Shown piece after piece: positions 978-38,107 of a stretch of 38,984 bases of DNA (position 1 is the first letter of the stretch; each line of letters starts with the position of its first letter). The stretch is from a virus. A program made the position numbers and the translations under genes. The notes beneath the pieces were generated by a model, which worked only from the letters and a program-made list of their open reading frames with translations, was not told the DNA's origin and made no database searches. The stretch lies in IMG/VR virus record IMGVR_UViG_3300036859_000972, positions 1 to 38,984 of that record; one strand, written 5' to 3'.

Positions 978-2642
978 TCACATCACCGAGATGGCATCCC
1001 ACGACGGCGTGGTGCCGCTGACGAACGCCAGGTGGACCGTCTTTCCGCCGTAGCCGTCCACGTTCACGAAGCTCTCGTAGGGCGCAGTCGCCGTGTCGTC
1101 AAACTCCCGCGCCCTCTCGGGTGAAGAGTCTGAATCCACGACCTTGATGCGAGACGTGGTGACGGTCTTCCGGATCCGGATCCGCTTTGCCTTCCTCGGG
1201 AGCCGGAGGCGCTGACTGGTCCCTGTGACGACCTGAATCCCGACTGGGACCTCTCCAAAGCTGCTCAGGATCCCCCGACGCCGGTCCTGGACCTGGCGGA
1301 GGACGGCGTCCCTGTTCTCGTCGGCACCGGGTGCCGTCCCGCTTCCAGCGACCTGCGGGTGCAACCGCTGGAGTAAAATCCCCGTTTTGTCCTGGGTCAG
1401 GATAGCGAGGGGGACCCGGTCGTCCGTGGGGTGGGCCGGTTCGGCAGGAGCGGCAGCCGCCGTGCCCTGGATGATGGAGAACACCCCGGCGTCGTCCACC
1501 ACCAGCAGGTCTTTCCTCGGGTTCGAGGCGTCGGCCGTCGCCATCGTGACAGTGTCCAAGCCGGTCTTGTTGAACCGTTTCCCCATCGTCACCAGAACCC
1601 CGCCGTAGCCATTGAGGCTGTCCGCGTCCTTCACCACGAAGAATCCAGCGAAGTCAATGATCTTATTGCCACTACTTTCGTTGGCAGCGTTGACTGTCAC
1701 CCTCACGGTGTGGGATCCCGCAGACAATCCGAGAATCGGGAACGGGTAGTCGAAGTGCGCATTGGTGCCCGCCCAAATCGTCCAGCGTTTCGCTACGAGT
1801 GTGGCGTCAAGCGTAATGTCCAGGAAGCCACGGTCCGTGTTCGTGTTGAACAGGAGGACGATGCCGGTGCCCGTGAAGGTAATCTCGAAATAATCTGCTG
1901 CGGTACTGCTCCGGCGCATCCGGCCCATGAGGTTCCGCGATTCCGTGTTGGTGGACCATGTCCCGACGTAGGTGATCGCCACGGTGTCGCCGGGGTCTAC
2001 AATGTCCTCGCGGTCCCCGTAGGGGAGAACGAAGACCTGATTGCACGCCACCCCGTCTGCGGCATCGGCCAGCACGTCCACGTACTCGATGCCCTGCTTG
2101 GCAATGATGAAACCGCTTGATGCCGCGTTCTTCGTCCCGCTCACCGTGATCCGGACGGTATGGGCAGCGTTCGACAGACCCTTGTACCCGAAGAAAAGCC
2201 GCTCGACCCGGCTGGCGCGGTAGGTGTCAATCGTATCCAGGGCTGCCGATCCATCCTCCATCGTGACGCCGGAGATGGTCGAGGGCGCCGACCCGTCGAT
2301 GGTGATGGTGGCAATCCCCTGGTTGCTATCCCCCCGCAGGACCAGCCGGAACGCCCTGGCGCGGATCGTGATCTCCACAAAGTCGTTCGTCGTGCTACTC
2401 AGGCGGCTATTGGTGTCTTCGATAGGACCGGTGTCGGCACCATCCGACCAGGCGCCGCTTTCGGTCCAGAGCAACGACCTGGTCGGCACCCGCACCACCT
2501 TCGGGATCACCAGGAACCCCTGCGGCGTGCACTTGGCGGCGAACAGCTCCTGGGGCGGGACGTTCTCCTGGACATCCAAGACATCGGAGGCGGCCGGGTT
2601 GATCGCGCGGTTCGTGTTGGAGATCAGGCGGGCCAGGGGCAT
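978..2642 (-). CDS. Putative tail fibre / receptor-binding protein with two beta-sandwich modules
   Basis: A 554-residue protein near the distal end of the tail operon. Two modules, about residues 55-190 and 225-345, share a layout: a DFVEITIRA or DYFEITFTG strand, a DITLD/TITID strand and an AHTVRITV/SHTVRVTV strand. This resembles galactose-binding-like carbohydrate-binding folds. The C-terminal 150 residues differ and end in a beta-rich segment. Such proteins usually form the host-contacting tip or side fibre of siphophages. Receptor binding is inferred from position and fold-like pattern; no catalytic motif is visible. Confidence 0.6.
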   Translation of the reverse strand: MPLARLISNTNRAINPAASDVLDVQENVPPQELFAAKCTPQGFLVIPKVVRVPTRSLLWTESGAWSDGADTGPIEDTNSRLSSTTNDFVEITIRARAFRLVLRGDSNQGIATITIDGSAPSTISGVTMEDGSAALDTIDTYRASRVERLFFGYKGLSNAAHTVRITVSGTKNAASSGFIIAKQGIEYVDVLADAADGVACNQVFVLPYGDREDIVDPGDTVAITYVGTWSTNTESRNLMGRMRRSSTAADYFEITFTGTGIVLLFNTNTDRGFLDITLDATLVAKRWTIWAGTNAHFDYPFPILGLSAGSHTVRVTVNAANESSGNKIIDFAGFFVVKDADSLNGYGGVLVTMGKRFNKTGLDTVTMATADASNPRKDLLVVDDAGVFSIIQGTAAAAPAEPAHPTDDRVPLAILTQDKTGILLQRLHPQVAGSGTAPGADENRDAVLRQVQDRRRGILSSFGEVPVGIQVVTGTSQRLRLPRKAKRIRIRKTVTTSRIKVVDSDSSPERAREFDDTATAPYESFVNVDGYGGKTVHLAFVSGTTPSWDAISVM

Positions 2643-2643
2643 G

Positions 2644-3078
2644 TCAGGCCTCGTATTCTATCTGGGTGAAGTACTGGACCGTCATCGTGTTGTCCTTCGG
2701 GAAGCCGGGATCCGGGATCGAAGCGATCAGCAGGTAGACGCCATTCACGTTCTTGATCCCGATCCGGCGCCAGGTGAAGTTGGCCTCCCCCGTCCCGAAG
2801 CTCACGTTGGCCTTCGCCAGGTTGTCGATCACCAGCAGGTTCGCCAGGTCCTTGACCACGTCCTCCGGGTTCAGTCCGGTGCTCAGCCGGTCGATCGCTG
2901 CCTGGGAGGACGAGACCACGAGCTGCTTCCAGGGGGCATGGGTCCCGAAGTTGAAGACGCGCTTGGCCTCCTCCTTCGCCCCGACGACCAGTAGCGTATT
3001 CGGGACGACGAGGACCCTGTCCGGCAGGCCATCCCGCCGGACTTCGAGCCAGTGCCTGGTCCGGTGGCGACGGCGCAC
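2644..3078 (-). CDS. Hypothetical minor tail/baseplate protein
   Basis: About 144 residues from the GTG at 3078, which lies 11 bases after the stop of the upstream hub-like gene. An ATG at 3153 in the same frame would add 25 low-complexity residues overlapping that gene. From LVVPNTLLVVGA onward the protein has mixed alpha/beta character, with a GTGEANFTWRRIGIKN stretch and a C-terminal TVQYFTQIEYEA strand. It is not recognised. Its place between the hub-like protein and the fibre suggests a small tail-tip or fibre-connector protein. The start codon is uncertain. Confidence 0.5.
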   Translation of the reverse strand: MRRRHRTRHWLEVRRDGLPDRVLVVPNTLLVVGAKEEAKRVFNFGTHAPWKQLVVSSSQAAIDRLSTGLNPEDVVKDLANLLVIDNLAKANVSFGTGEANFTWRRIGIKNVNGVYLLIASIPDPGFPKDNTMTVQYFTQIEYEA

Positions 3079-21411: not shown

Positions 21412-21759
21412 TCAGATCGCGCCCACGGCCGGCCCCGTCCCATGGGGCGCCGGCAGGAGGCTCAGCCCCAGCCGGGCGAGCTGCCGGGCCAGGGTCTTCC
21501 AGGGCACCCGGCTGCAGCCGGCCTGGGCTGCCGGCCCGGCCGCTGCCCGCTTCCGGCGCCGCCGGAGGGCCTTCTCGCCGAGCCGCTTCGCCTCGGCTTC
21601 CCAGGCCCGCCGGCAGGCCGTCTGGCAGAACCTGCCCGAGCTGCCCCGCCTGGGTTTCTCCAGCGGCTTATCGCACTGGTCACAGGCCCCGGCCTTGATG
21701 GGCCGTTTTTGCGGCCTGGCTGGGCCTACAAAATGCGCGCGCGCATTTCCCCTATCCAT
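21412..21759 (-). CDS. Small zinc-finger protein between terminase and portal genes
   Basis: A 115-residue, very basic protein with CDQCDKPLEKPRRGSSGRFC followed by CRRAW, a four-cysteine zinc-binding pattern. The ATG at 21759 overlaps the terminase stop. An ATG at 21789 would add ten residues. The C-terminal half is Arg/Ala-rich. HNH nucleases are often found near terminases, but no HNH motif is present, so this may be a DNA-binding packaging accessory. Function unknown. Confidence 0.6.
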   Translation of the reverse strand: MDRGNARAHFVGPARPQKRPIKAGACDQCDKPLEKPRRGSSGRFCQTACRRAWEAEAKRLGEKALRRRRKRAAAGPAAQAGCSRVPWKTLARQLARLGLSLLPAPHGTGPAVGAI

Positions 21760-23326
21760 GGCCGCCCATCCAGCCCTGGGCCCGTACAAGGCCGCCTACA
21801 GCGTGGCGCCCCCACCGGCCGGCGCGGGGTCCGGCCAGCGCCGCCTCCTCCCGCGCCCGCTCAGTTTGGTCCGACCCGGCATCCGCCGCCGCCACCTGGA
21901 GCATCAGGGCATCGGCCAGGTGGGCCAGGGCGTCCGGGCCGTCGTCGTTGACCGTCGTGCTCGGGAACGCCAGGAGCTGCTCGATGAGGAGGTCGGTCAT
22001 GGGGTCCTCGGCCAGGAACCGGAGGATCCCCCGCTCGACCAGGGGGGAGGCCTTGGCGACCCGGGTCTCCTTGGCCTCCGTCTCCTTGAGCATCCGGAGG
22101 GGCAGGTGCATTCCCCGCCGCTCCCCCTCCGATCGGAAGTACAGCTCGAGCCCCAGGAAGCCCGTCTCGCCCAGGAGGATCTCGCCGGCCGGCTCCTCGA
22201 GCTGGCGGGCGTAGGCCACCTGGACGATGGAGTCCAGCGACCGCCGGGTGATGTCCGGCCGGCGCACGTACAGGTACCCGTCCTGGGACCGCCCCCCCTT
22301 CACGAAGGCCCGGAAGTCCGATGTCTCGTTCCGCCCCAGGCTCGGGTCGATGACCTCCTTGACGACGTGGACCTGGCCGGCGATGTCCGCCTTCCGGTAC
22401 CGGACGATCCAGGACTCCTTGAAGAGCGCCTCGTCGTCCGGGGCGTCGAGCAGGATCTCCTTGTTGTAGGCGACCGAGCCCATCTTCCGCTTCATCCGGG
22501 CCAGGACCTCGGCCGAGAACCGGGCCGCCCAGGCCGGGGTCCCGTCCGTGTTCTCCCCCGGGAACCAGGCGTGCACCCAGGCCGCATCGGCCAGGACGAT
22601 GGCCAGCGCCGACCGCTTGGAGAGGAGGGTCCCGATCCACATCAGGGAGCCCCGGTGCGGGTCGAGCGCCCCCATCACCGCCTCCCGGACCCACTGGAGG
22701 AGCCGCTTCACCGTGGCCGGGTTCCGGACGTCCTGGTCCTCCTCGAGGTCGTCCAGGATGATGAGGTCCGGCCGGTGCGGCCCGTGCTTGATCCCCCGGA
22801 TCGCCTGCCCCTTGCCGCGGGCCAGGACCTTGATACCGGTCCGGGTCGTCAGGTCGTCGTCCCCCCAGGGCTGGCCCTTCAGGTCGCCGAAGTCGCTCCG
22901 GATCCGGGCGTTCTCCTCCAGCTCGATCCGGATCGCCCGGACCATCGGGGCCGCGAGCTCTCCGGTCGCCTGGACCAGGATGATGAAGTGGCGCAGCTCG
23001 TAGCAGATCGCGTGGAGGGGGTTGCCGAAGGAGACCCGGGTGCTCTTCGAGAACCCGCGGGCGGCCGCAACCGCGACCGGGTCCTCCCGGACGTCGAGAA
23101 GGCGGTCCATCTCCGCGTGCATCGGCGCCGGCGGGTCCGTGAAGTAGTGCGGCAGGTAGGTGTCGAAGAAATACTGCCGGTCCTCCCGGGCCCGGCGGAC
23201 CCGGGCCGTCTTCTTCTCCGCGGTGTCGTCCGGGAACGCCGAGACGGCTCCCCGGATGTAGTCCCGGAGCTCCCGCTCCTCGAGCGCGAACTGCCGGGGC
23301 GTCAGGCTCAGGATCTCGTCACGCAT
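21752..23326 (-). CDS. Terminase large subunit
   Basis: A 524-residue packaging motor. Walker A is ARGFSKST (residues about 89-96), with the variant form common in phage terminases. Walker B is LIILDDLEE (about 188-196), with catalytic acid at its end. The nuclease half has IDPSLG (about 326-331) and DDGPDAL (about 461-467) as acidic metal-binding motifs. The C-terminal 40 residues are Gly/Arg-rich. It couples ATP hydrolysis to DNA filling and cuts the concatemer or host-flanked genome. The start overlaps the small subunit gene by eight bases. Confidence 0.9.
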   Translation of the reverse strand: MRDEILSLTPRQFALEERELRDYIRGAVSAFPDDTAEKKTARVRRAREDRQYFFDTYLPHYFTDPPAPMHAEMDRLLDVREDPVAVAAARGFSKSTRVSFGNPLHAICYELRHFIILVQATGELAAPMVRAIRIELEENARIRSDFGDLKGQPWGDDDLTTRTGIKVLARGKGQAIRGIKHGPHRPDLIILDDLEEDQDVRNPATVKRLLQWVREAVMGALDPHRGSLMWIGTLLSKRSALAIVLADAAWVHAWFPGENTDGTPAWAARFSAEVLARMKRKMGSVAYNKEILLDAPDDEALFKESWIVRYRKADIAGQVHVVKEVIDPSLGRNETSDFRAFVKGGRSQDGYLYVRRPDITRRSLDSIVQVAYARQLEEPAGEILLGETGFLGLELYFRSEGERRGMHLPLRMLKETEAKETRVAKASPLVERGILRFLAEDPMTDLLIEQLLAFPSTTVNDDGPDALAHLADALMLQVAAADAGSDQTERAREEAALAGPRAGRWGRHAVGGLVRAQGWMGGHG

Positions 23327-24288: not shown

Positions 24289-24620
24289 AGCCGCTCCTCC
24301 ATGCGGGCCTTGATGTGCCCGAGGCGGTCCATGATGACGTCCTGCCCGTGGCGGAGCTCGTCCAGGGCCCGCTCGTGCAGTCCGCCCTGCTCCCGAATCG
24401 AGGCCGCCAGGTCCTGGAGGGCCCGAGCCTGGTCCCGTTGCGCCTCGATGGCGCGGGGGGCGTACTGCAGCATCAGCGCCACGAGCAGAAGGACCCCCCC
24501 GTTCTGGACGACGAGGCGCTGGACCCCCTCGCTGACATCGCCCCCGAGGAATCCCCCCGCCATGAGCGCAAGGATCCCCCAGGGGAGCCCCGCCTCGAGC
24601 CACGCCCGCACCCGGGTCAT
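24285..24620 (-). CDS. Small membrane protein with C-terminal coiled coil (DUF2730-like position)
   Basis: An 111-residue protein whose ATG at 24620 overlaps the preceding stop (ATGA). An in-frame ATG at 24635 is an alternative. Two hydrophobic segments (LPWGILALMAGGFLG and GGVLLLVALMLQYAP) are followed by a charged helix with HGQDVIMDRLGHIKARMEE. Mu-like phages carry a small protein of this shape between lysis and terminase genes. It might aid lysis or packaging at the membrane. Confidence 0.6.
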   Translation of the reverse strand: MTRVRAWLEAGLPWGILALMAGGFLGGDVSEGVQRLVVQNGGVLLLVALMLQYAPRAIEAQRDQARALQDLAASIREQGGLHERALDELRHGQDVIMDRLGHIKARMEERL

Positions 24621-25093
24621 CGCTTCTCTGTCCATCCTGCCGGCGCGCCCTGAGGCGTTGGCGCTGGCTCCAGCGCCGGCGTGGGTGTCTCCGGTGCCTC
24701 ACGGGATGGATCCAAGCCCCCCCCCAGCCGGCACCGCTCGTCCGCCTCCCCGTTCACGGCGAGGAGCGCGCACCGGTTCGCGTTGAACCGGGCCAGGACC
24801 TCGCGCAGCCAGTCCTGGAAGGCCGGCCAGGCCTCCCGGCTGAAGCCGGCCGCCAGGCCGAAGTCCCCCTCGGGCTCGGTTTGGAGGCGGTAGATCTTGG
24901 TCTCCGGGTAGACGCCCCGGTCGTCCGCGAAGGGGACCACGCGGAGCGCCGGCCGCTTCGGCAGCTCGTAGACCGTGACGTCAGGCGGGCCCGGGCCCAG
25001 GATCCCCAGGCCGGCGCAGCTCGCCGTCATCAGGCCGGCCAGTGACGGGATCCAGGCCCTCCAGCCGCTCCTTCTCACCCGCGTATCCCCCAT
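24617..25093 (-). CDS. Putative outer-membrane lipoprotein spanin subunit
   Basis: About 158 residues from the ATG at 25093. The N-terminus is basic, then hydrophobic, with a lipobox-like TASC where the Cys would be lipidated. It overlaps the inner-membrane partner gene by 113 bp in another frame, the classic overlapping Rz/Rz1 layout. It is longer than usual Rz1 proteins, with a globular middle (VYPETKIYRLQTEPEGDFG, in part) and a Pro-rich tail. The lipoprotein call is fairly good; the spanin role is inferred from overlap and lysis context. Confidence 0.5.
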   Translation of the reverse strand: MGDTRVRRSGWRAWIPSLAGLMTASCAGLGILGPGPPDVTVYELPKRPALRVVPFADDRGVYPETKIYRLQTEPEGDFGLAAGFSREAWPAFQDWLREVLARFNANRCALLAVNGEADERCRLGGGLDPSREAPETPTPALEPAPTPQGAPAGWTEKR

Positions 25094-25241
25094 GGGAGGC
25101 TTGCTCGGCCTCCGCCCGGAGCGTGGCATCGCCGACCCGCGCCTCCGTGAGGCCCTGCCCCCGCGCCTTCCGCCACAGGAACCAGGTCCCGAAGGCGACG
25201 ATGGCCAGCGTCACGCCGCCCAGCAGCAGGTACAGGCCCAT
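24981..25241 (-). CDS. Putative inner-membrane spanin subunit
   Basis: An 86-residue protein with one N-terminal membrane helix (LLLGGVTLAIVAFGTWFLW) and a charged, helical periplasmic part of about 60 residues (including ATLRAEAEQAS). It follows the holin-like gene and overlaps the lipoprotein gene. The pair would bridge inner and outer membranes in the last step of lysis. It is short for an i-spanin, so the call is tentative. Confidence 0.5.
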   Translation of the reverse strand: MGLYLLLGGVTLAIVAFGTWFLWRKARGQGLTEARVGDATLRAEAEQASHGGYAGEKERLEGLDPVTGRPDDGELRRPGDPGPGPA

Positions 25242-25260
25242 GGCGCCCCCCGCCCTGCGC

Positions 25261-25455
25261 CTACTTCGTGTTCCGGAACGCGGCGATGGCGGCCTTGAAC
25301 TTCTCGCCCTTGCCGGCCCCCCAGATCGCGGTCACGCCCGTTCCGGCGAACGCGGCCGCGGTCTCCCAATCCAGCGAGGGGAACCCCACGAACCCCAGGG
25401 CGAACCCGCCCAGCCCCACGACGATCGCCAGCCCGCCGGCCACCTTCATGAACAT
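25261..25455 (-). CDS. Putative holin
   Basis: A 64-residue protein with a strong AAAGGAGG site and two hydrophobic segments (VAGGLAIVVGLGGFALGFVG and TAAAFAGTGVTAIWGAG), followed by a short basic C-terminus. It lies directly after the endolysin gene. Size, topology and position suit a class II holin, which would permeabilise the membrane and time lysis. No sequence signature proves it. Confidence 0.6.
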   Translation of the reverse strand: MFMKVAGGLAIVVGLGGFALGFVGFPSLDWETAAAFAGTGVTAIWGAGKGEKFKAAIAAFRNTK

Positions 25456-25467
25456 CTCAGCCTCCTT

Positions 25468-25875
25468 TCACACGTCCTCGGCCGCGAACCGCTGGTAGAG
25501 GCCCCAGAGGTTGCGGGCGTGGACCTCGTTCAGCGCATGAGCCGCCGGCGGCGCCCACCGGTGGCTGAAGCCCTCCACGAACTCGATGCGGTAGCAGAGC
25601 CGTGGGTGCGTGGTCTGGTCGAAGGGATTCTGGTGGTACTCCCGCAGCCGGTTTCGGATGCTGTTGGCGGCCACGTTCGCCTGCATCGCGAATGTGGGGG
25701 CCGCATACGTCTGCACCCCGAACTCCCCGCCCAGGTACGGGTTGCCGCCCGGGTTCGGGTTCGGCCGCTGGGGCCCCCCGTTCTCCGCCTTCCGCAGGGC
25801 CGCCAGAAGGGCCCAATCGATCCCCCGTCGCCTGGCCACCTGCCGGATCACCTCCAGCTCCTGGTCCCATGTCAC
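25468..25875 (-). CDS. Endolysin, lysozyme-like
   Basis: A 135-residue protein starting with GTG at 25875, overlapping the preceding stop as GTGA. The segment LLAALRKAENGG with E31 followed by GEFGV is the active-site pattern of a small phage lysozyme-like family (usual form RxxENGGxxxEFG). Here about 13 extra residues rich in Pro, Asn and Gly separate the two parts. A conserved aromatic C-terminal region (FSHRWAPPAAHALNEVHARN) follows. It would cut peptidoglycan at lysis. No signal peptide is seen, so it depends on a holin. Confidence 0.7.
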   Translation of the reverse strand: MTWDQELEVIRQVARRRGIDWALLAALRKAENGGPQRPNPNPGGNPYLGGEFGVQTYAAPTFAMQANVAANSIRNRLREYHQNPFDQTTHPRLCYRIEFVEGFSHRWAPPAAHALNEVHARNLWGLYQRFAAEDV

Positions 25876-26111
25876 GAGGCGACGTCCCCCATCCAGGCCT
25901 CCCGGGCGGCCCCCGGCATCGGCGCCCGGTCCTCCTGCTTCTCCACCCAGTGCGCGTTGAGCGTCACCGGCCAGTCTCCCTCTGGCCGAGCGTGCAGGGG
26001 CCGGACGATCACGTTGCACGTCTCCTGCCCCTCAAAGATCTGCTCCACGGTCCCTTCCAGGAGCACCTTGTCCCCAGGCTTCAGCTGGCGGCCCTTGCAG
26101 TCGTGCGGCAT
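25872..26111 (-). CDS. Small SH3-like protein, first gene after the late terminator
   Basis: A 79-residue protein from the ATG at 26111 with an AGAGGAGA site. It contains LKPGDKVLLEGTVEQIFEGQ, then NVIVRPL, a small barrel resembling SH3/KOW-like folds, and a second strand pair. It is the first gene of the lysis block and its stop overlaps the endolysin start. Function unknown. Its place directly after the promoter-terminator pair makes a regulatory RNA-binding role conceivable but unproven. Confidence 0.65.
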   Translation of the reverse strand: MPHDCKGRQLKPGDKVLLEGTVEQIFEGQETCNVIVRPLHARPEGDWPVTLNAHWVEKQEDRAPMPGAAREAWMGDVAS

Positions 26112-26130
26112 GGGGTCTCCTCTGGCCCGC

Positions 26131-26174
26131 AAAAAAGAAAGCGCCCGGGGGGCCCTTTGTGGCCGCCCGGGCGC
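26131..26174 (-). terminator. Strong intrinsic terminator ahead of the lysis operon
   Basis: On the minus strand GCGCCCGGG (26174-26166) pairs perfectly with CCCGGGCGC (26149-26141) and is followed by TTTCTTTTTT (26140-26131). It stands after the last early gene and before the first lysis gene, and just downstream of a putative promoter. Confidence 0.9.
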
Positions 26175-26206
26175 GTAGCGGGCGTAGCGAGTAAATTTTC
26201 GGGGGC

Positions 26207-26236
26207 AGTTTACGCCCCTTCAACGCCTCCTGTCAA
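26207..26236 (-). promoter_or_regulatory. Putative late promoter
   Basis: Minus-strand TTGACA at 26236-26231 (perfect -35) and TAAACT at 26212-26207 (-10, 4 of 6) are separated by 18 bp. Transcription would begin near 26200 and meet the intrinsic terminator within about 30 bases. The -35 overlaps the stop codon of the last early gene. Confidence 0.6.
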
Positions 26237-26349
26237 CGCCCTCCAAAGGGGCCCTGCTCCAGCCAGCTCCGGACGTACCAGGCCGCGGCCGCCAACCCGA
26301 CCAGCACGGCGCCCGCCGCCCCTCCCACGACCCACATCCACCGCTTCAC
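26233..26349 (-). CDS. Very small membrane protein
   Basis: A 38-residue protein starting with GTG at 26349 behind a near-perfect GGAGGAGGAGG site. Almost all of it is one membrane helix (VVGGAAGAVLVGLAAAAWYV) with basic and aromatic flanks. It is the last gene before the terminator. Function unknown; possible roles include lysis timing or superinfection exclusion, both guesses. Confidence 0.6.
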   Translation of the reverse strand: MKRWMWVVGGAAGAVLVGLAAAAWYVRSWLEQGPFGGR

Positions 26350-26369: not shown

Positions 26370-26750
26370 CTACCGATCCCCGCCCGTCGCCTCCCGGAAG
26401 GGCGGGAACGGCCGACCGCTCCGGTCCACGACCCCCGTCCGGACGTCGATCTCGCCCGCCAGGATCTCGGTCTCCCGGGCCAGGCGGTCCAACTCCGCGA
26501 CGTTCTCCGCGGTCTTCTCGTCCGGGTTGTCCGGCATGAGGGCCTCCAGGTGCTCCCAATCCAAGCCCACCCGGAGCACCCGCCCGGCGAGGACCTCGAG
26601 CCCATGCGACGCCGCCCGGAACCATGCCGCCAGGGTGAAGTGCTCAATGTCCGTGATGAGGAAGGCGTGGGTCGCGGCCAGGTTGATCCCCTCCCGACCC
26701 GCCTCGAACCGCTTCAACAGGACCTGGCCCGGCTCCACCGTGTACGTCAT
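26370..26750 (-). CDS. Hypothetical early protein
   Basis: A 126-residue protein with an AAAGGAG site; its ATG overlaps the end of the long frame of the upstream zinc-finger gene (ATGA). It is mainly helical with an acidic C-terminal region (PDEKTAENVAELDRLARETE) and a central LAAWFRAASHGLEVLAG. Not recognised. No metal-binding or catalytic motif is visible. Confidence 0.6.
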   Translation of the reverse strand: MTYTVEPGQVLLKRFEAGREGINLAATHAFLITDIEHFTLAAWFRAASHGLEVLAGRVLRVGLDWEHLEALMPDNPDEKTAENVAELDRLARETEILAGEIDVRTGVVDRSGRPFPPFREATGGDR

Positions 26751-27418
26751 CCCGCGCTCCTTTCGCTCGCCGTCTCTTCGCCACTCTTCCGCCGCCTCAC
26801 GCCGCCGCCCTCCCCTCCAGCTTCGCGAGGGCCTCGCCCGTCTCGCACGAGCACCCCCGTTCCCATTCCGCCCGGCAGACCTCGCTTCGGATCCCCATGA
26901 GCCACTTCGGGCACTCGACGCTGACCGGGATCAACGGCCGGCTCTGCTGCGGCGCGTTGCGGCACGGCCGCACTCCGCTCCGTGGGGGGCGCCTTCCGGC
27001 GGATCGGCCGCTCCAGGGAGTCTCCCGCGCAGCGCCGCTCGTAGTGGGTCCGACAGAGCCCGGCCTGGCGGATGCTCCGGCCGCACCCCTCGACCGCGCA
27101 CGCCATGCCCTGCTCCCGCAGGCGGCGCCGGAATTCCAGGCGGTAGTGTTTGGTGCACAACCCCTGGGCGTGGTGGCCACTCCCGCAGCCCGGGATGGAG
27201 CAGGTCGGGCCGAACGCTCCGGCATTCCGGGCCCGGAAGTAGTGCATGGTGCAGAGGCCCCTGGCCAGGGAGCGCGTGCGGCAGCCCTCGACGCTGCAGA
27301 ACGGGTTCTCCTGCTGGAGCCGGTGGGCCTGGTAGTGGGCGGCGCATCGGCCCTGGGCCTTGTGCGGCTGCCCGCAGCCCCGGATCGCGCAGGTCGGTCT
27401 CTCGCCCCCTCTAGGCAT
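26747..27418 (-). CDS. Protein with four tandem CxxxxC...CxxHY zinc fingers
   Basis: Up to 223 residues. Residues about 9-130 hold four similar units of the form C-x4-C-x9-C-x2-H-(Y), for example CSIPGCGSGHHAQGLC followed by TKHY. Such treble-clef-like knuckles occur singly next to HNH domains or in small phage proteins; four in a row is unusual. Codon bias collapses after about residue 145, while the +1/-2 frame keeps excellent bias, so the true C-terminus may be encoded in the other frame after the six-C run at 26984-26989. DNA or RNA binding is likely. It lies just upstream of the late promoter region. Confidence 0.7.
   Translation of the reverse strand: MPRGGERPTCAIRGCGQPHKAQGRCAAHYQAHRLQQENPFCSVEGCRTRSLARGLCTMHYFRARNAGAFGPTCSIPGCGSGHHAQGLCTKHYRLEFRRRLREQGMACAVEGCGRSIRQAGLCRTHYERRCAGDSLERPIRRKAPPTERSAAVPQRAAAEPAVDPGQRRVPEVAHGDPKRGLPGGMGTGVLVRDGRGPREAGGEGGGVRRRKSGEETASERSAG
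26797..26973 (-). CDS. Small Cys-rich ORF in the alternative frame of the zinc-finger gene
   Basis: A 58-codon frame from a GTG at 26973, with almost every third base G or C. It contains VECPKWLMGIRSEVCRAEW followed by GCSCETGEALAKLEG, so four or five cysteines could bind a metal. It may be the real C-terminus of the four-finger protein reached by frameshift, or a separate overlapping gene. The GTG has only a weak GGAG upstream. It overlaps the long frame fully. Confidence 0.45.
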   Translation of the reverse strand: MRPCRNAPQQSRPLIPVSVECPKWLMGIRSEVCRAEWERGCSCETGEALAKLEGRAAA

Positions 27419-27644
27419 CGTCGTCTTCCAGGGAATGGACCGACTCCCGCTGCCCCGCCACCCACTCGCACCGCGCGCAAGACAACCCCCCCCGCGGGTC
27501 CCGCACCCAGGCGTGATAGCGGCAGCGCTCTTGGAGATACTCCAGGCGATCGCGCCGGGTCAGCCGGACCATCCCACAGAAGAAGACCGCCACGGCGACG
27601 CTCGCCACGCACCACGCGCCAAGGACCTGGAGGACCGTCGTCAC
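27411..27644 (-). CDS. Small membrane protein with cysteine pair (intact copy)
   Basis: A 77-residue protein: N-terminal membrane helix (VLGAWCVASVAVAVFFCGMV), then a cytoplasmic part with ERCRYHAWVRDPRGGLSCARC, a potential zinc site. The start overlaps the previous stop (ATGA). The 840-bp repeat unit carries only the first 35 codons of this gene, so it is complete only in this left copy. In the right copy it is truncated and fused to another gene. Function unknown. Confidence 0.6.
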   Translation of the reverse strand: MTTVLQVLGAWCVASVAVAVFFCGMVRLTRRDRLEYLQERCRYHAWVRDPRGGLSCARCEWVAGQRESVHSLEDDDA

Positions 27645-27886
27645 GGGCCCCCTCCGATTCCGAGCGGCTGCGGCCCTTCCTCGACGTTGAATCGCGTATG
27701 GTCCTCACGGCATAGTGCCTGCAGCGCGTCGTAGGCCCTCCCGTGCCCGTCCTCCCCATTCAGGGGGAGACCGCCGTTCCGGGCGCCTCGGATCAGACCG
27801 CGCAGGATGCAGATCTCCACCGCCTGGTCCAGATCCGAGAACCCTCCGTTGACCAGGAGGAGTCCGGCCAGGAGGATTGCCCTCAT
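27641..27886 (-). CDS. Small secreted or membrane-anchored protein, copy 1
   Basis: An 81-residue protein with an N-terminal signal-like segment (MRAILLAGLLLVNGGFS), then DLDQAVEICILRGLIRGARN and a polar tail. The ATG at 27886 overlaps the previous stop (ATGA), which fixes the start. An identical copy lies 840 bp to the right. Function unknown. Confidence 0.6.
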   Translation of the reverse strand: MRAILLAGLLLVNGGFSDLDQAVEICILRGLIRGARNGGLPLNGEDGHGRAYDALQALCREDHTRFNVEEGPQPLGIGGGP

Positions 27887-28074
27887 ACAGAGACCTCGGC
27901 GTAGACGGCCGTTTCCGTGCTGATCGGCTTCATGCCAGGGTCCTTGTAGCTCTGCAGGGACCCTCGCTTCCATTCGGGCGCGGCGTCCCGGCAGGCCAGG
28001 ATCTGCTCCTCGATCTCGTCGAAGAACTCCGACCGGTGCGTCTCTCTGCAGAAGATACAGCGCACCTCGTACAT
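27883..28074 (-). CDS. Small protein with CxxC, copy 1
   Basis: A 63-residue protein starting MYEVRCIFCRETHRSEFFDE. The CIFC pair suggests half of a zinc ribbon; a third Cys lies in ILACRD. Its start shares one base with the preceding stop (TGATG). An identical copy is encoded at 28723-28914. It is part of a run of small zinc-ribbon genes. Function unknown. Confidence 0.6.
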   Translation of the reverse strand: MYEVRCIFCRETHRSEFFDEIEEQILACRDAAPEWKRGSLQSYKDPGMKPISTETAVYAEVSV

Positions 28075-28268
28075 CAGTTCCACACCCACCCGCAGGGGCA
28101 CTTGACCGTCTCCATCGGGTCCCGCCGCCGGATCTCCCGCCCGCACTGCGGGCAGAGCCGCACCCACTCCAGGACCCCGTCCATCTCCGCCGTCAAGCGC
28201 CGAATCGTGAGCGTCAGGCTCTCCAGCACTTCTTCCATCGCCTCAAGCCGCGGATCGCGGCCGGTCAT
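28074..28268 (-). CDS. Small zinc-ribbon protein, copy 1
   Basis: A 64-residue protein from the ATG at 28268. A helical N-terminal half (EAMEEVLESLTLTIRRLTAE) is followed by a zinc ribbon, CPQCG...CPCGW. It is identical to the copy at 28914-29108. In this copy the frame is also open upstream and forms the chimeric ORF. It could bind nucleic acid or a protein partner; function unknown. Confidence 0.65.
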   Translation of the reverse strand: MTGRDPRLEAMEEVLESLTLTIRRLTAEMDGVLEWVRLCPQCGREIRRRDPMETVKCPCGWVWN

Positions 28269-28484
28269 CGCCGGGGCTCCGCCGCTTCGCCGCCCTCCGC
28301 CGCACCGCCTTGACCGCCTCGATGCACTTGCGGACCCCCAGGTCATCCGCCGGCCAGACGATCTCCGCCCGGGACCGGTCTCCAGGCGATCGCGCCGGGT
28401 CAGCCGGACCATCCCACAGAAGAAGACCGCCACGGCGACGCTCGCCATGCACCACGCGCCAAGGACCTGGAGGACCGTCGTCAC
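28074..28484 (-). CDS. Chimeric ORF made at the duplication junction
   Basis: A 136-codon frame that begins with the first 35 residues (membrane helix) of the small membrane protein. It crosses the junction at 28381 into about 37 residues of formerly antisense or out-of-frame sequence, and then continues in frame through the whole zinc-ribbon protein of copy 1 (from 28268). It could be translated from the membrane-protein start, giving a membrane-tethered zinc ribbon. The linker is Arg/Ser/Gly-rich and unlikely to fold. This is a product of the duplication, not a conserved gene. Confidence 0.6.
   Translation of the reverse strand: MTTVLQVLGAWCMASVAVAVFFCGMVRLTRRDRLETGPGRRSSGRRMTWGSASASRRSRRCGGGRRSGGAPAMTGRDPRLEAMEEVLESLTLTIRRLTAEMDGVLEWVRLCPQCGREIRRRDPMETVKCPCGWVWN
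28243..28380 (-). pseudogene. 3' fragment of the GemA-like gene (duplication remnant)
   Basis: The last 45 codons of the GemA-like gene (from SRAEIVWPADDLGVRK onward) are repeated here without the 5' part, because the duplication began inside that gene. The frame is open upstream into the junction but lacks the normal start. Confidence 0.85.
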
Positions 28485-28726
28485 GGGCCCCCTCCGATTC
28501 CGAGCGGCTGCGGCCCTTCCTCGACGTTGAATCGCGTATGGTCCTCACGGCATAGTGCCTGCAGCGCGTCGTAGGCCCTCCCGTGCCCGTCCTCCCCATT
28601 CAGGGGGAGACCGCCGTTCCGGGCGCCTCGGATCAGACCGCGCAGGATGCAGATCTCCACCGCCTGGTCCAGATCCGAGAACCCTCCGTTGACCAGGAGG
28701 AGTCCGGCCAGGAGGATTGCCCTCAT
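28481..28726 (-). CDS. Small secreted or membrane-anchored protein, copy 2
   Basis: Identical to the 81-residue protein at 27641-27886, with the same signal-like N-terminus and ATGA overlap. Both copies have intact starts and stops and could be expressed. Function unknown. Confidence 0.6.
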   Translation of the reverse strand: MRAILLAGLLLVNGGFSDLDQAVEICILRGLIRGARNGGLPLNGEDGHGRAYDALQALCREDHTRFNVEEGPQPLGIGGGP

Positions 28727-28914
28727 ACAGAGACCTCGGCGTAGACGGCCGTTTCCGTGCTGATCGGCTTCATGCCAGGGTCCTTGTAGCTCTGCAGGGA
28801 CCCTCGCTTCCATTCGGGCGCGGCGTCCCGGCAGGCCAGGATCTGCTCCTCGATCTCGTCGAAGAACTCCGACCGGTGCGTCTCTCTGCAGAAGATACAG
28901 CGCACCTCGTACAT
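28723..28914 (-). CDS. Small protein with CxxC, copy 2
   Basis: Identical to the 63-residue protein at 27883-28074. The start shares one base with the stop of the zinc-ribbon gene (TGATG), as in the other copy. Function unknown. Confidence 0.6.
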   Translation of the reverse strand: MYEVRCIFCRETHRSEFFDEIEEQILACRDAAPEWKRGSLQSYKDPGMKPISTETAVYAEVSV

Positions 28915-29108
28915 CAGTTCCACACCCACCCGCAGGGGCACTTGACCGTCTCCATCGGGTCCCGCCGCCGGATCTCCCGCCCGCACTGCGGGCAGAGCCG
29001 CACCCACTCCAGGACCCCGTCCATCTCCGCCGTCAAGCGCCGAATCGTGAGCGTCAGGCTCTCCAGCACTTCTTCCATCGCCTCAAGCCGCGGATCGCGG
29101 CCGGTCAT
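28914..29108 (-). CDS. Small zinc-ribbon protein, copy 2
   Basis: Identical 64-residue protein, from the ATG at 29108 inside the end of the GemA-like gene (26-base overlap). This is the ancestral arrangement, since the upstream gene is complete here. Zinc ribbon CPQCG...CPCGW at the C-terminus. Confidence 0.65.
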   Translation of the reverse strand: MTGRDPRLEAMEEVLESLTLTIRRLTAEMDGVLEWVRLCPQCGREIRRRDPMETVKCPCGWVWN

Positions 29109-29685
29109 CGCCGGGGCTCCGCCGCTTCGCCGCCCTCCGCCGCACCGCCTTGACCGCCTCGATGCACTTGCGGACCCCCAGGTCATCCGCCGGCCAGACG
29201 ATCTCCGCCCGGGACCGGTCCGGCCTCCCGAGCGCCCGGTCGAAGACCCCGTTCACGTAGTCGGCGCTCATCCCGGCGACCAGGTTCTTGAGCCGGAAGA
29301 GGGCATCGAGCGTCAGGCGGGAGCCCGGGTGGCCCTCCCGGCGGGGGCGCTTCTGCGGGGCCGGGAGCTTGCCGTCCCGTCCCAGCTCCACCCACTCCCC
29401 CCGCCGCCGCACGCGCCCGAGCGTCTCGGCGTTTAGCTGGTCGAGGACGATGGCCAGCTCCCGCCGGTCCAGCGTCCACGCCCCCCCTCGGCCCGGCGGC
29501 TCGTGGAAGTGCCGGATCGGCCGCCCGAGCGCGATCGCCGTCGTCCCCTCCAGGGCGTCCCGCGCCTGGTCCTCGCTCAACCCGAGGCGCCGGGCCCAGG
29601 TCCAGAATGCGCGGAGCTGCGCCGCCGTCGGCCAGACGCCGGCCGCCCCGGCCACCCCCGCCCCCACCACGCCCGCGCAGCTCAT
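29083..29685 (-). CDS. Putative GemA/Gp16-like regulatory protein
   Basis: A 200-residue protein with PTAAQLRAFWTWARRLGLSE followed by a helical region, and a C-terminal part with RLTLDALFRLKNLVAGM and DDLGVRKCIEAVKAVRRRAA. The start of the conserved part (a Q-L...LGLsedqaR pattern) resembles the Mu gp16/GemA family, which modulates host gene expression and DNA topology. Position in the middle-early region also fits. The family match is moderate. The ATG overlaps the previous stop (ATGA). Confidence 0.45.
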   Translation of the reverse strand: MSCAGVVGAGVAGAAGVWPTAAQLRAFWTWARRLGLSEDQARDALEGTTAIALGRPIRHFHEPPGRGGAWTLDRRELAIVLDQLNAETLGRVRRRGEWVELGRDGKLPAPQKRPRREGHPGSRLTLDALFRLKNLVAGMSADYVNGVFDRALGRPDRSRAEIVWPADDLGVRKCIEAVKAVRRRAAKRRSPGDDRPRSAA

Positions 29686-37616: not shown

Positions 37617-37645
37617 AAAGTACCGAATCGGTCCTTATCTGTCAA
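37617..37645 (-). promoter_or_regulatory. Early lytic promoter
   Basis: TTGACA at 37645-37640 is a perfect -35. After 17 bp comes TACTTT at 37622-37617, a weak -10. The palindromic operator lies in the spacer, so repressor binding would block RNA polymerase. It would drive the leftward early operon starting with the Ner-like gene. Confidence 0.65.
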
Positions 37646-37665: not shown

Positions 37666-38107
37666 ACATCTCGGCGCAAGAATACGGCAAATCCGCGAAT
37701 CTCTTGAGCTAACTCAGGCTCAATTCGCAGACAGGTGCGGCTTTCCAAATAGAACAGGAGTAGTACGATATGAGGCTGGCAGGAAGCGACCAAACCTAGA
37801 GCTACTCATCAGAATCGCGAAGGTTGGAGGTGTCTCGCTGGAATGGCTGCTAACAGGGGAGGACCAGCAACTTCCCGAGAGCAAAGGCCAGCGTATCCTT
37901 GTCCATGAAGCTCCAGTTATATATCAGTCGATCATAGAGGAATTAATCCATGGTCCCCCAGAGCTGATCCGGGCCATCCGTGACCTGATAGAAGTCGTAA
38001 AGGGCCCCGATGAGCAAGCTACAAACTGGCTCCTGGGCAATATCACGGTCTTCGCCGAGCGCACCAGGGCGCACACCGGGAAGCGCAGACGACGACGGGC
38101 TGGCTAG
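37646..38107 (+). CDS. XRE-family phage repressor
   Basis: A 153-residue protein on the opposite strand to nearly all others. The N-terminal helix-turn-helix is LGARIRQIRESLELTQAQFA then NRTGVVRYEAGRKRPNLELL, with SLEWLLTGED at its end, a typical XRE domain. The C-terminal 80 residues are helical with a basic tail and no LexA/CI peptidase motif. The GTG at 37646 is the most upstream sensible start; it has no ribosome-binding site and may be leaderless. The gene is visibly less GC-rich than its surroundings. It would keep lysogeny through the operators at its start. Confidence 0.8.
   Translation: MKSSESVHLGARIRQIRESLELTQAQFADRCGFPNRTGVVRYEAGRKRPNLELLIRIAKVGGVSLEWLLTGEDQQLPESKGQRILVHEAPVIYQSIIEELIHGPPELIRAIRDLIEVVKGPDEQATNWLLGNITVFAERTRAHTGKRRRRRAG

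Follow-up and report, generated by a model that had tools for sequence, protein, structure and literature searches.

The Q protein of lambda is the classical case of antitermination, and for activation of late genes by Mor and C the textbook example is the Mu-like phages. At lambda pR'/tR', a good sigma70 promoter is followed by an intrinsic terminator, located ~136 nt after the start and directly before the lysis and virion genes, and the system includes Q and a -10-like pause element. An antiterminator without homology to Q is also described, since AlpA of P. aeruginosa acts at the promoter before the lysis genes of alpBCDE, where the terminator lies 54 nt after the start (PMC7969949). The known function of Com, another protein of Mu (PF10122), is to activate mom translation; its RNA-binding core is GAGNNCC, and two copies 2-3 nt apart are preferred (PMC6483171).

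In this work, the whole stretch of viral DNA that was analysed (IMGVR_UViG_3300036859_000972, IMG/VR; 38,984 bases, 69% GC) is called the window. Its genes lie almost all on the minus strand. Unlike lambda, the virus is a Mu-like transposable phage, with a Mu-type transposase (PF02914 and rve), a MuB-like ATPase (AAA_22/TniB, 32% identity to Mu B) and Gam (PF07352) all above cut-off. The gene order is transposase, MuB-like protein and Gam, then a CII-like and another helix-turn-helix protein, small early genes, a presumed lysis region, terminase, portal, head and tail. A promoter and a terminator were observed as a pair at the boundary of early and late genes, oriented in the late direction, with a lysis and virion operon of ~25 kb downstream (Table 1). 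The pair occupies the same genome position, between the GemA-like region and the lysis genes, and stands in the same gene order as the Mor/C control of Mu; unlike Mu, the window has no Mor/C protein, and it has a strong -35 and a terminator downstream of the promoter. The arrangement resembles lambda pR'/tR' in its promoter, its terminator and its place, with default termination assumed here, whereas the terminator comes only ~26 nt after the predicted start and there is no member of the Q family. By analogy, it may also be compared with alpBCDE, with which it has a promoter, a short leader, an intrinsic terminator and lysis genes in common.

Table 1. Features of the window at and around the promoter-terminator pair.
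Feature	Position	Strand	Remark
-35 hexamer TTGACA	26231..26236	-	a small early transmembrane ORF stops inside it (stop codon, end 26233)
-10 hexamer TAAACT	26207..26212	-	spacer 18 nt
Direct repeat GGCGTTGA x2, 13 nt apart	26220..26240	-	spans -35 and spacer; p=0.008 (shuffling)
Dyad GGGGC-GTAAACT-GCCCC	26202..26218	-	centred on -10; candidate regulator site; one match in the window
Tandem leader repeat CGCTACGCC-CGCTACGCG (box CGCTACGC x2), period 9	26172..26189	-	directly 5' of the hairpin; p about 0.02
Intrinsic terminator	26131..26174	-	9+4 bp GC hairpin, 1x1 internal loop, then TTTCTTTTTT
Terminator hairpin GCGCCCGGG-C-GGCC-ACAAAG-GGCC-C-CCCGGGCGC	26174-26141	-	
Terminator tail TTTCTTTTTT	26140-26131	-	
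First gene past the terminator, 79 aa	25872..26111	-	no family; first ATG at 26111
Presumed lysis region	24617..25875	-	no family matches
Endolysin-like ORF (by position)	25468-25875	-	within presumed lysis region
Small membrane ORFs	25261-25455, 24981-25241	-	within presumed lysis region
Lipoprotein-like ORF	24617-25129	-	within presumed lysis region
Terminase large subunit	21752..23326	-	query for fetching relatives
Four-finger protein ORF	26747..27418	-	C-terminal part in another frame than that of L002
Coiled-coil and C4 zinc ribbon protein, 64 aa (CPQCGREIRRRDPMETVKCPCGWVWN)	28914..29108	-	conserved in L002; candidate late regulator
Zinc-ribbon gene, second copy	28074..28268	-	from 840-bp tandem duplication
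Cold-shock domain protein PF00313	31853..32098	-	also in L002

The sequence-only reading had described a TTGACA-N18-TAAACT promoter followed by an intrinsic terminator before the lysis and virion operon. The pair is confirmed as real and as more than chance: both elements are present on the minus strand, 32 nt apart, and each is the best of its kind in the contig. By scanning both strands of the window with weighted E. coli matrices, applied to a genome of 69% GC, the site at 26236-26207 was the top promoter with 11.7 bits, the runner-up reaching 10.1. A consensus scan gave two promoter-like sites in 15 kb against 0.7 expected, and the same site was the higher scorer. From spacing only, transcription is predicted to start near 26200. 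The terminator is by far the strongest in the window (-30.3 kcal/mol, followed by a poorly tailed one at -22), and its d'Aubenton-Carafa-type score is strongly positive (+47). A simple consensus-scan program overlooked it, for which the 1x1 internal loop is probably responsible. The folding of leader and terminator together (26200-26120) beat all 200 of 200 shuffles (z -4.7). The exact 30-mer of the promoter had no match among viral contigs. A further, weaker hairpin of terminator type, at -20 kcal/mol and with a poor T tail, was seen at 37687-37738 (-), upstream of an early helix-turn-helix gene; with a nearby promoter TTGACA-17-TACTTT at 37645, it is a possible early attenuator.

The closest relative, L002, has a terminase 91% identical to that of the window and a syntenic early region in which most proteins show ~50-77% identity. 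Its pair consists of TTGACG-N17-TAGAAT and, 34 nt further, a hairpin followed by T7; the next gene encodes an amidase (PF01510), at the position of the window's presumed lysis region. The promoters of the two phages align closely around the -10 (GGGGnn-TAnAnT-nCCCC), while the hairpins do not align, and the lysis genes are also unlike. Because the layout is the same and the hairpin sequence is unlike, promoter and terminator were kept while the terminator sequence changed.

Further relatives were retrieved with a terminase profile (80 viral and 50 genome loci); the GemA-like (gp16-like) protein retrieved none as sole query. A junction terminator was defined as a strong terminator on the late strand, 1.3-4.6 kb upstream of terminase, and a promoter had to reach at least 9 bits within 150 nt. 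In the first set, 87 of these loci, a promoter was found at 11 of 29 junction terminators, where shuffles gave 1.5, and at 7 of 92 terminators elsewhere (p=2.7e-4). In the second set, 48 loci fetched afterwards with another profile and judged by unchanged criteria, the corresponding proportions were 7/12 (0.7 expected) and 3/47 (p=2.1e-4); since the relatives are not independent, the p-values are optimistic. One of the seven pairs of the second set, that of L193, lies inside coding sequence in a phage with Mor, and a more distant relative, L005, is without such a pair. These counts bear on a rival explanation, in which the terminator simply closes the early operon and shields the late genes from it, while the promoter is of little or no importance (fortuitous or minor) and the late genes start elsewhere from an unrecognised activator-dependent promoter. 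The terminator does lie exactly at the early/late boundary, junction terminators without a recognisable promoter were found in L008, L072, L077 and L081, and L012 and L077 carry Mor, so that an insulating terminator alone does occur. We nevertheless regard this explanation as unlikely for the window, since only 30 nt separate the terminator from the first ATG, which leaves scant space for a further promoter, and the matrix scan found no other good sigma70-type promoter within the 25-kb late operon. Moreover, promoters are far commoner before junction terminators than elsewhere in both sets of loci, and L002 retains the layout despite its changed terminator.

By comparing the pairs among phages, it was seen that leaders differ widely in sequence and in length, which ranges from ~20 to ~110 nt, and that what persists is the layout and the place before the late genes. 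Where the genes downstream of a pair had a family match, they were cell-wall hydrolases, namely Amidase_2 (L002), Peptidase M15 (L006) and Amidase_3 (L138). This variation speaks against a small-RNA gene, whose terminated transcript of ~70 nt would itself be the product and would regulate an mRNA of phage or host, a view that might also be taken of lambda 6S RNA or IsrK. In its favour, a small-RNA transcription unit is just such a promoter with a terminator, the fold of the stretch is stable, and IsrK of Gifsy-1 is a prophage example in which both read-through and terminated forms occur (PMC4825925). On the other hand, the Rfam search for a small RNA gave no match, and such a gene seems to us very unlikely. 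In L069, L049 and L072, three phages that have no Com-like ribbon, a common element CGGTATCGGAAAAACC, with variants, stands directly upstream of the junction terminator hairpin; in L069 and L049, virion-like genes precede the pair.

Several repeats were observed at the promoters and in the leaders. The dyad centred on the -10 of the window has a counterpart in the same register in L002 (GGGGG-ATAGAAT-CCCCC), with p-values of 0.23 for the window alone and 0.012 for L002, and L059 has an 8-bp dyad across its -35. Over 13 pair promoters, dyads were over-represented (sum 64 against 53.7, p=0.002), and thus a DNA-binding factor may act at the promoter. The leader repeat of the window may be an RNA or DNA element; the leader of L002 contains tandem TTAGCC x2 with period 11 (p=0.002). 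As regards a -10-like pause element, TTTACT occurs near +6 in the window, and 13 leaders showed no enrichment over shuffles. The over-represented dyads, together with the CII-like and other helix-turn-helix proteins encoded by the phage, would fit control at initiation, in which a repressor or activator binds the promoter dyads and the terminator is too leaky to matter. The predictions, however, make the terminator a very strong one, and the relatives either retained a strong terminator or swapped in another strong one, which would be needless if it were leaky and irrelevant, so that control at initiation alone is, in our judgment, most improbable.

The proteins expected for activator control were absent from the window: neither it nor L002 has a member of the Mor/C family (PF08765). 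Among records with a strict pair, that is, a pair outside coding sequence, the Mor family was found in 0 of 15 (L193 left out) versus 17 of 48 other records (p=0.006, or p=0.027 when L193 is counted as a pair), although this contrast is supporting evidence only, because the records may be fragments and are related. Weak pairs were found also in the Mor-bearing L115 and L155. The matrix scanner that recovered lambda pR'-tR' as a control found no pair in the middle/late region of Mu or in JBD30, Mushuvirus and a Mannheimia Mu-like phage, and in all four an annotated late activator of the Mor/C family stands where the window has its pair. The Q families PF03589 and PF06530 had no match in 26 records (the window and 25 relatives) in a search with an E. 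coli positive control. The window phage is thus not of the lambda Q family by homology, and Q-like control of it would be a functional analogy. The earlier proposal of late antitermination rather than a Mu C-type activator is therefore supported in part, as the layout recurs above chance at the usual place of Mor/C and the Mor family is missing from the window and the 15 strict records; the likeness to lambda does not extend to Q, and the factors that it had named went unsupported.

A strong terminator ~30-110 nt into the transcript, before the late genes, is best explained by antitermination, and the many relatives that keep this layout without Mor/C suggest that late genes are switched on by overriding a stop signal, as in lambda. 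While promoter, terminator, position, recurrence and the absence of the Mor/C and Q families can be read from the sequence, we infer where transcription starts, that it terminates by default, that there is an antiterminator and which protein this is. We hypothesize that the pair is probably the on/off switch of the late operon, acting by antitermination, in a phage without a Mor/C-type activator. A sigma70-type promoter, constitutive or operator-controlled, would start a leader RNA of ~70 nt, which would end by default at the strong hairpin; early transcription would stop at this hairpin as well. In the late phase of infection, a factor encoded by the phage, whether bound at the promoter or to the leader, would make RNA polymerase ignore the terminator and transcribe the 25-kb lysis and virion operon. 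If a large, mostly uncultured group uses such a lambda-like terminated promoter, as appears, the Mu-like genome plan would have two interchangeable late switches. In the literature searched, mainly freely accessible papers, no such switch was described for Mu-like phages.

In many pair-bearing phages, the gene just 5' of the promoter encodes a C4 zinc ribbon of 40-76 aa that resembles Mu Com. A match to PF10122 at E<=0.01 was obtained for seven of 12 ribbons, and that of L139 exceeds the cut-off. The ribbons had been noted before the GAGNNCC motif was known to the analysis. Across 22 junction pairs, 18 GAGNNCC boxes were counted in leaders and 5' arms against 2.9 expected, often in tandem, and 16 of the 18 fall in 7 of the 11 phages with a Com-like ribbon; L038, L078 and L139 have the exact tandem arrangement. 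Among 175 distinct strong terminators, at least two boxes were present at 4/9 terminators with a Com-like ORF ending no more than 400 nt upstream versus 3/166 others (p=1e-4). A scan of IMG/VR for a tandem box with a terminator, done without gene information, returned 14 stretches; in L202, L203, L205 and L207 the boxes begin 28-56 nt past the end of a Com-like ribbon, and in L204 a ribbon lies ~250 nt upstream. In a control scan for tandem GAGCGCC without a T-run, the matches were mostly coding, and none of 80 had a Com-like ORF close upstream. What discriminates is solely a ribbon immediately before the terminator in combination with the boxes. The mere presence of a small C4 ribbon at some place in the early region was rejected as a marker, because it occurs in 12/16 pair phages versus 10/17 Mor phages.

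Read most simply, this association would mean that these terminators are targets of the Com-like proteins, which would either prevent or promote termination. In several relatives, the factor overriding the terminator would most likely be the Com-like ribbon encoded just upstream, reading tandem GAGNNCC in the leader RNA. More tentatively, and with less than even confidence, we propose that Com-family ribbons are RNA-binding antiterminators of late genes in many Mu-like phages and of other head-gene operons, that their binding sites are the tandem GAGNNCC boxes of the nascent leader, which in many cases overlap the terminator's 5' arm, and that translational activation of mom is one derived use; the two ribbon genes of the window (28914-29108 and 28074-28268), with CGCTACGC x2, would be a diverged version. 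A role of Com in transcription termination was not described in the literature searched, mainly freely accessible papers. The association offers a cheap and concrete test of whether a known RNA-binding protein belongs to an unrecognised class of transcription antiterminators. The Com-like ribbon ORF, the tandem GAGNNCC and the intrinsic terminator form a compact module in otherwise unlike phages (L202 ~1748-1956, L203 2582-2856, L205 1863-2129, L207 518-824, all on the minus strand). In L202 and L203, a prohead protease-like gene follows the terminator; in Mu, a late promoter precedes the prohead protease gene. A second scan returned L251, where ~2060-2830 (+) contains a head-protein-like ORF that ends in a Com-like ribbon; a tRNA-like sequence and tandem GAGCGCC come next, and then a protease-like ORF preceded by a strong terminator.

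For the window itself, the four-finger zinc protein and the cold-shock protein had been named as candidate factors, and both are now unlikely. The cold-shock protein is common only to the window and L002, being absent from the 25 other relatives searched, and L002 matches no more than part of the four-finger protein, whose C-terminal part is out of frame relative to L002 and whose best database matches are zinc fingers of HNH-type families. A small C4 zinc ribbon, Com-like in the relatives, appears to be the better candidate. The ribbon of the window compares weakly with the Com-like profile (hhalign probability 33%), PF10122 has no match in the window and its leader is without GAGNNCC boxes; the ribbon was rejected as a Com on the profile result, and the factor of the window is thus a guess. 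The small protein encoded directly past the terminator was rejected as a common junction factor, since it had no match in the relatives. A single GAGACCC, which fits GAGNNCC, lies at 26114-26120 (-), where it shares bases with the first late gene's ribosome-binding site, and may be due to chance. The part of the four-finger protein conserved in L002 (SVECPKW...) sits in an overlapping frame at 26797-27759 (-), and the frame change possibly reflects an indel at a C-run near 26990, either a sequencing error or real. The two ribbon genes result from an 840-bp tandem duplication (27641-28480 and 28481-29320) in which the zinc-ribbon gene and adjoining small ORFs are doubled with identical proteins, and the unit is apparently present as a single copy in L002.
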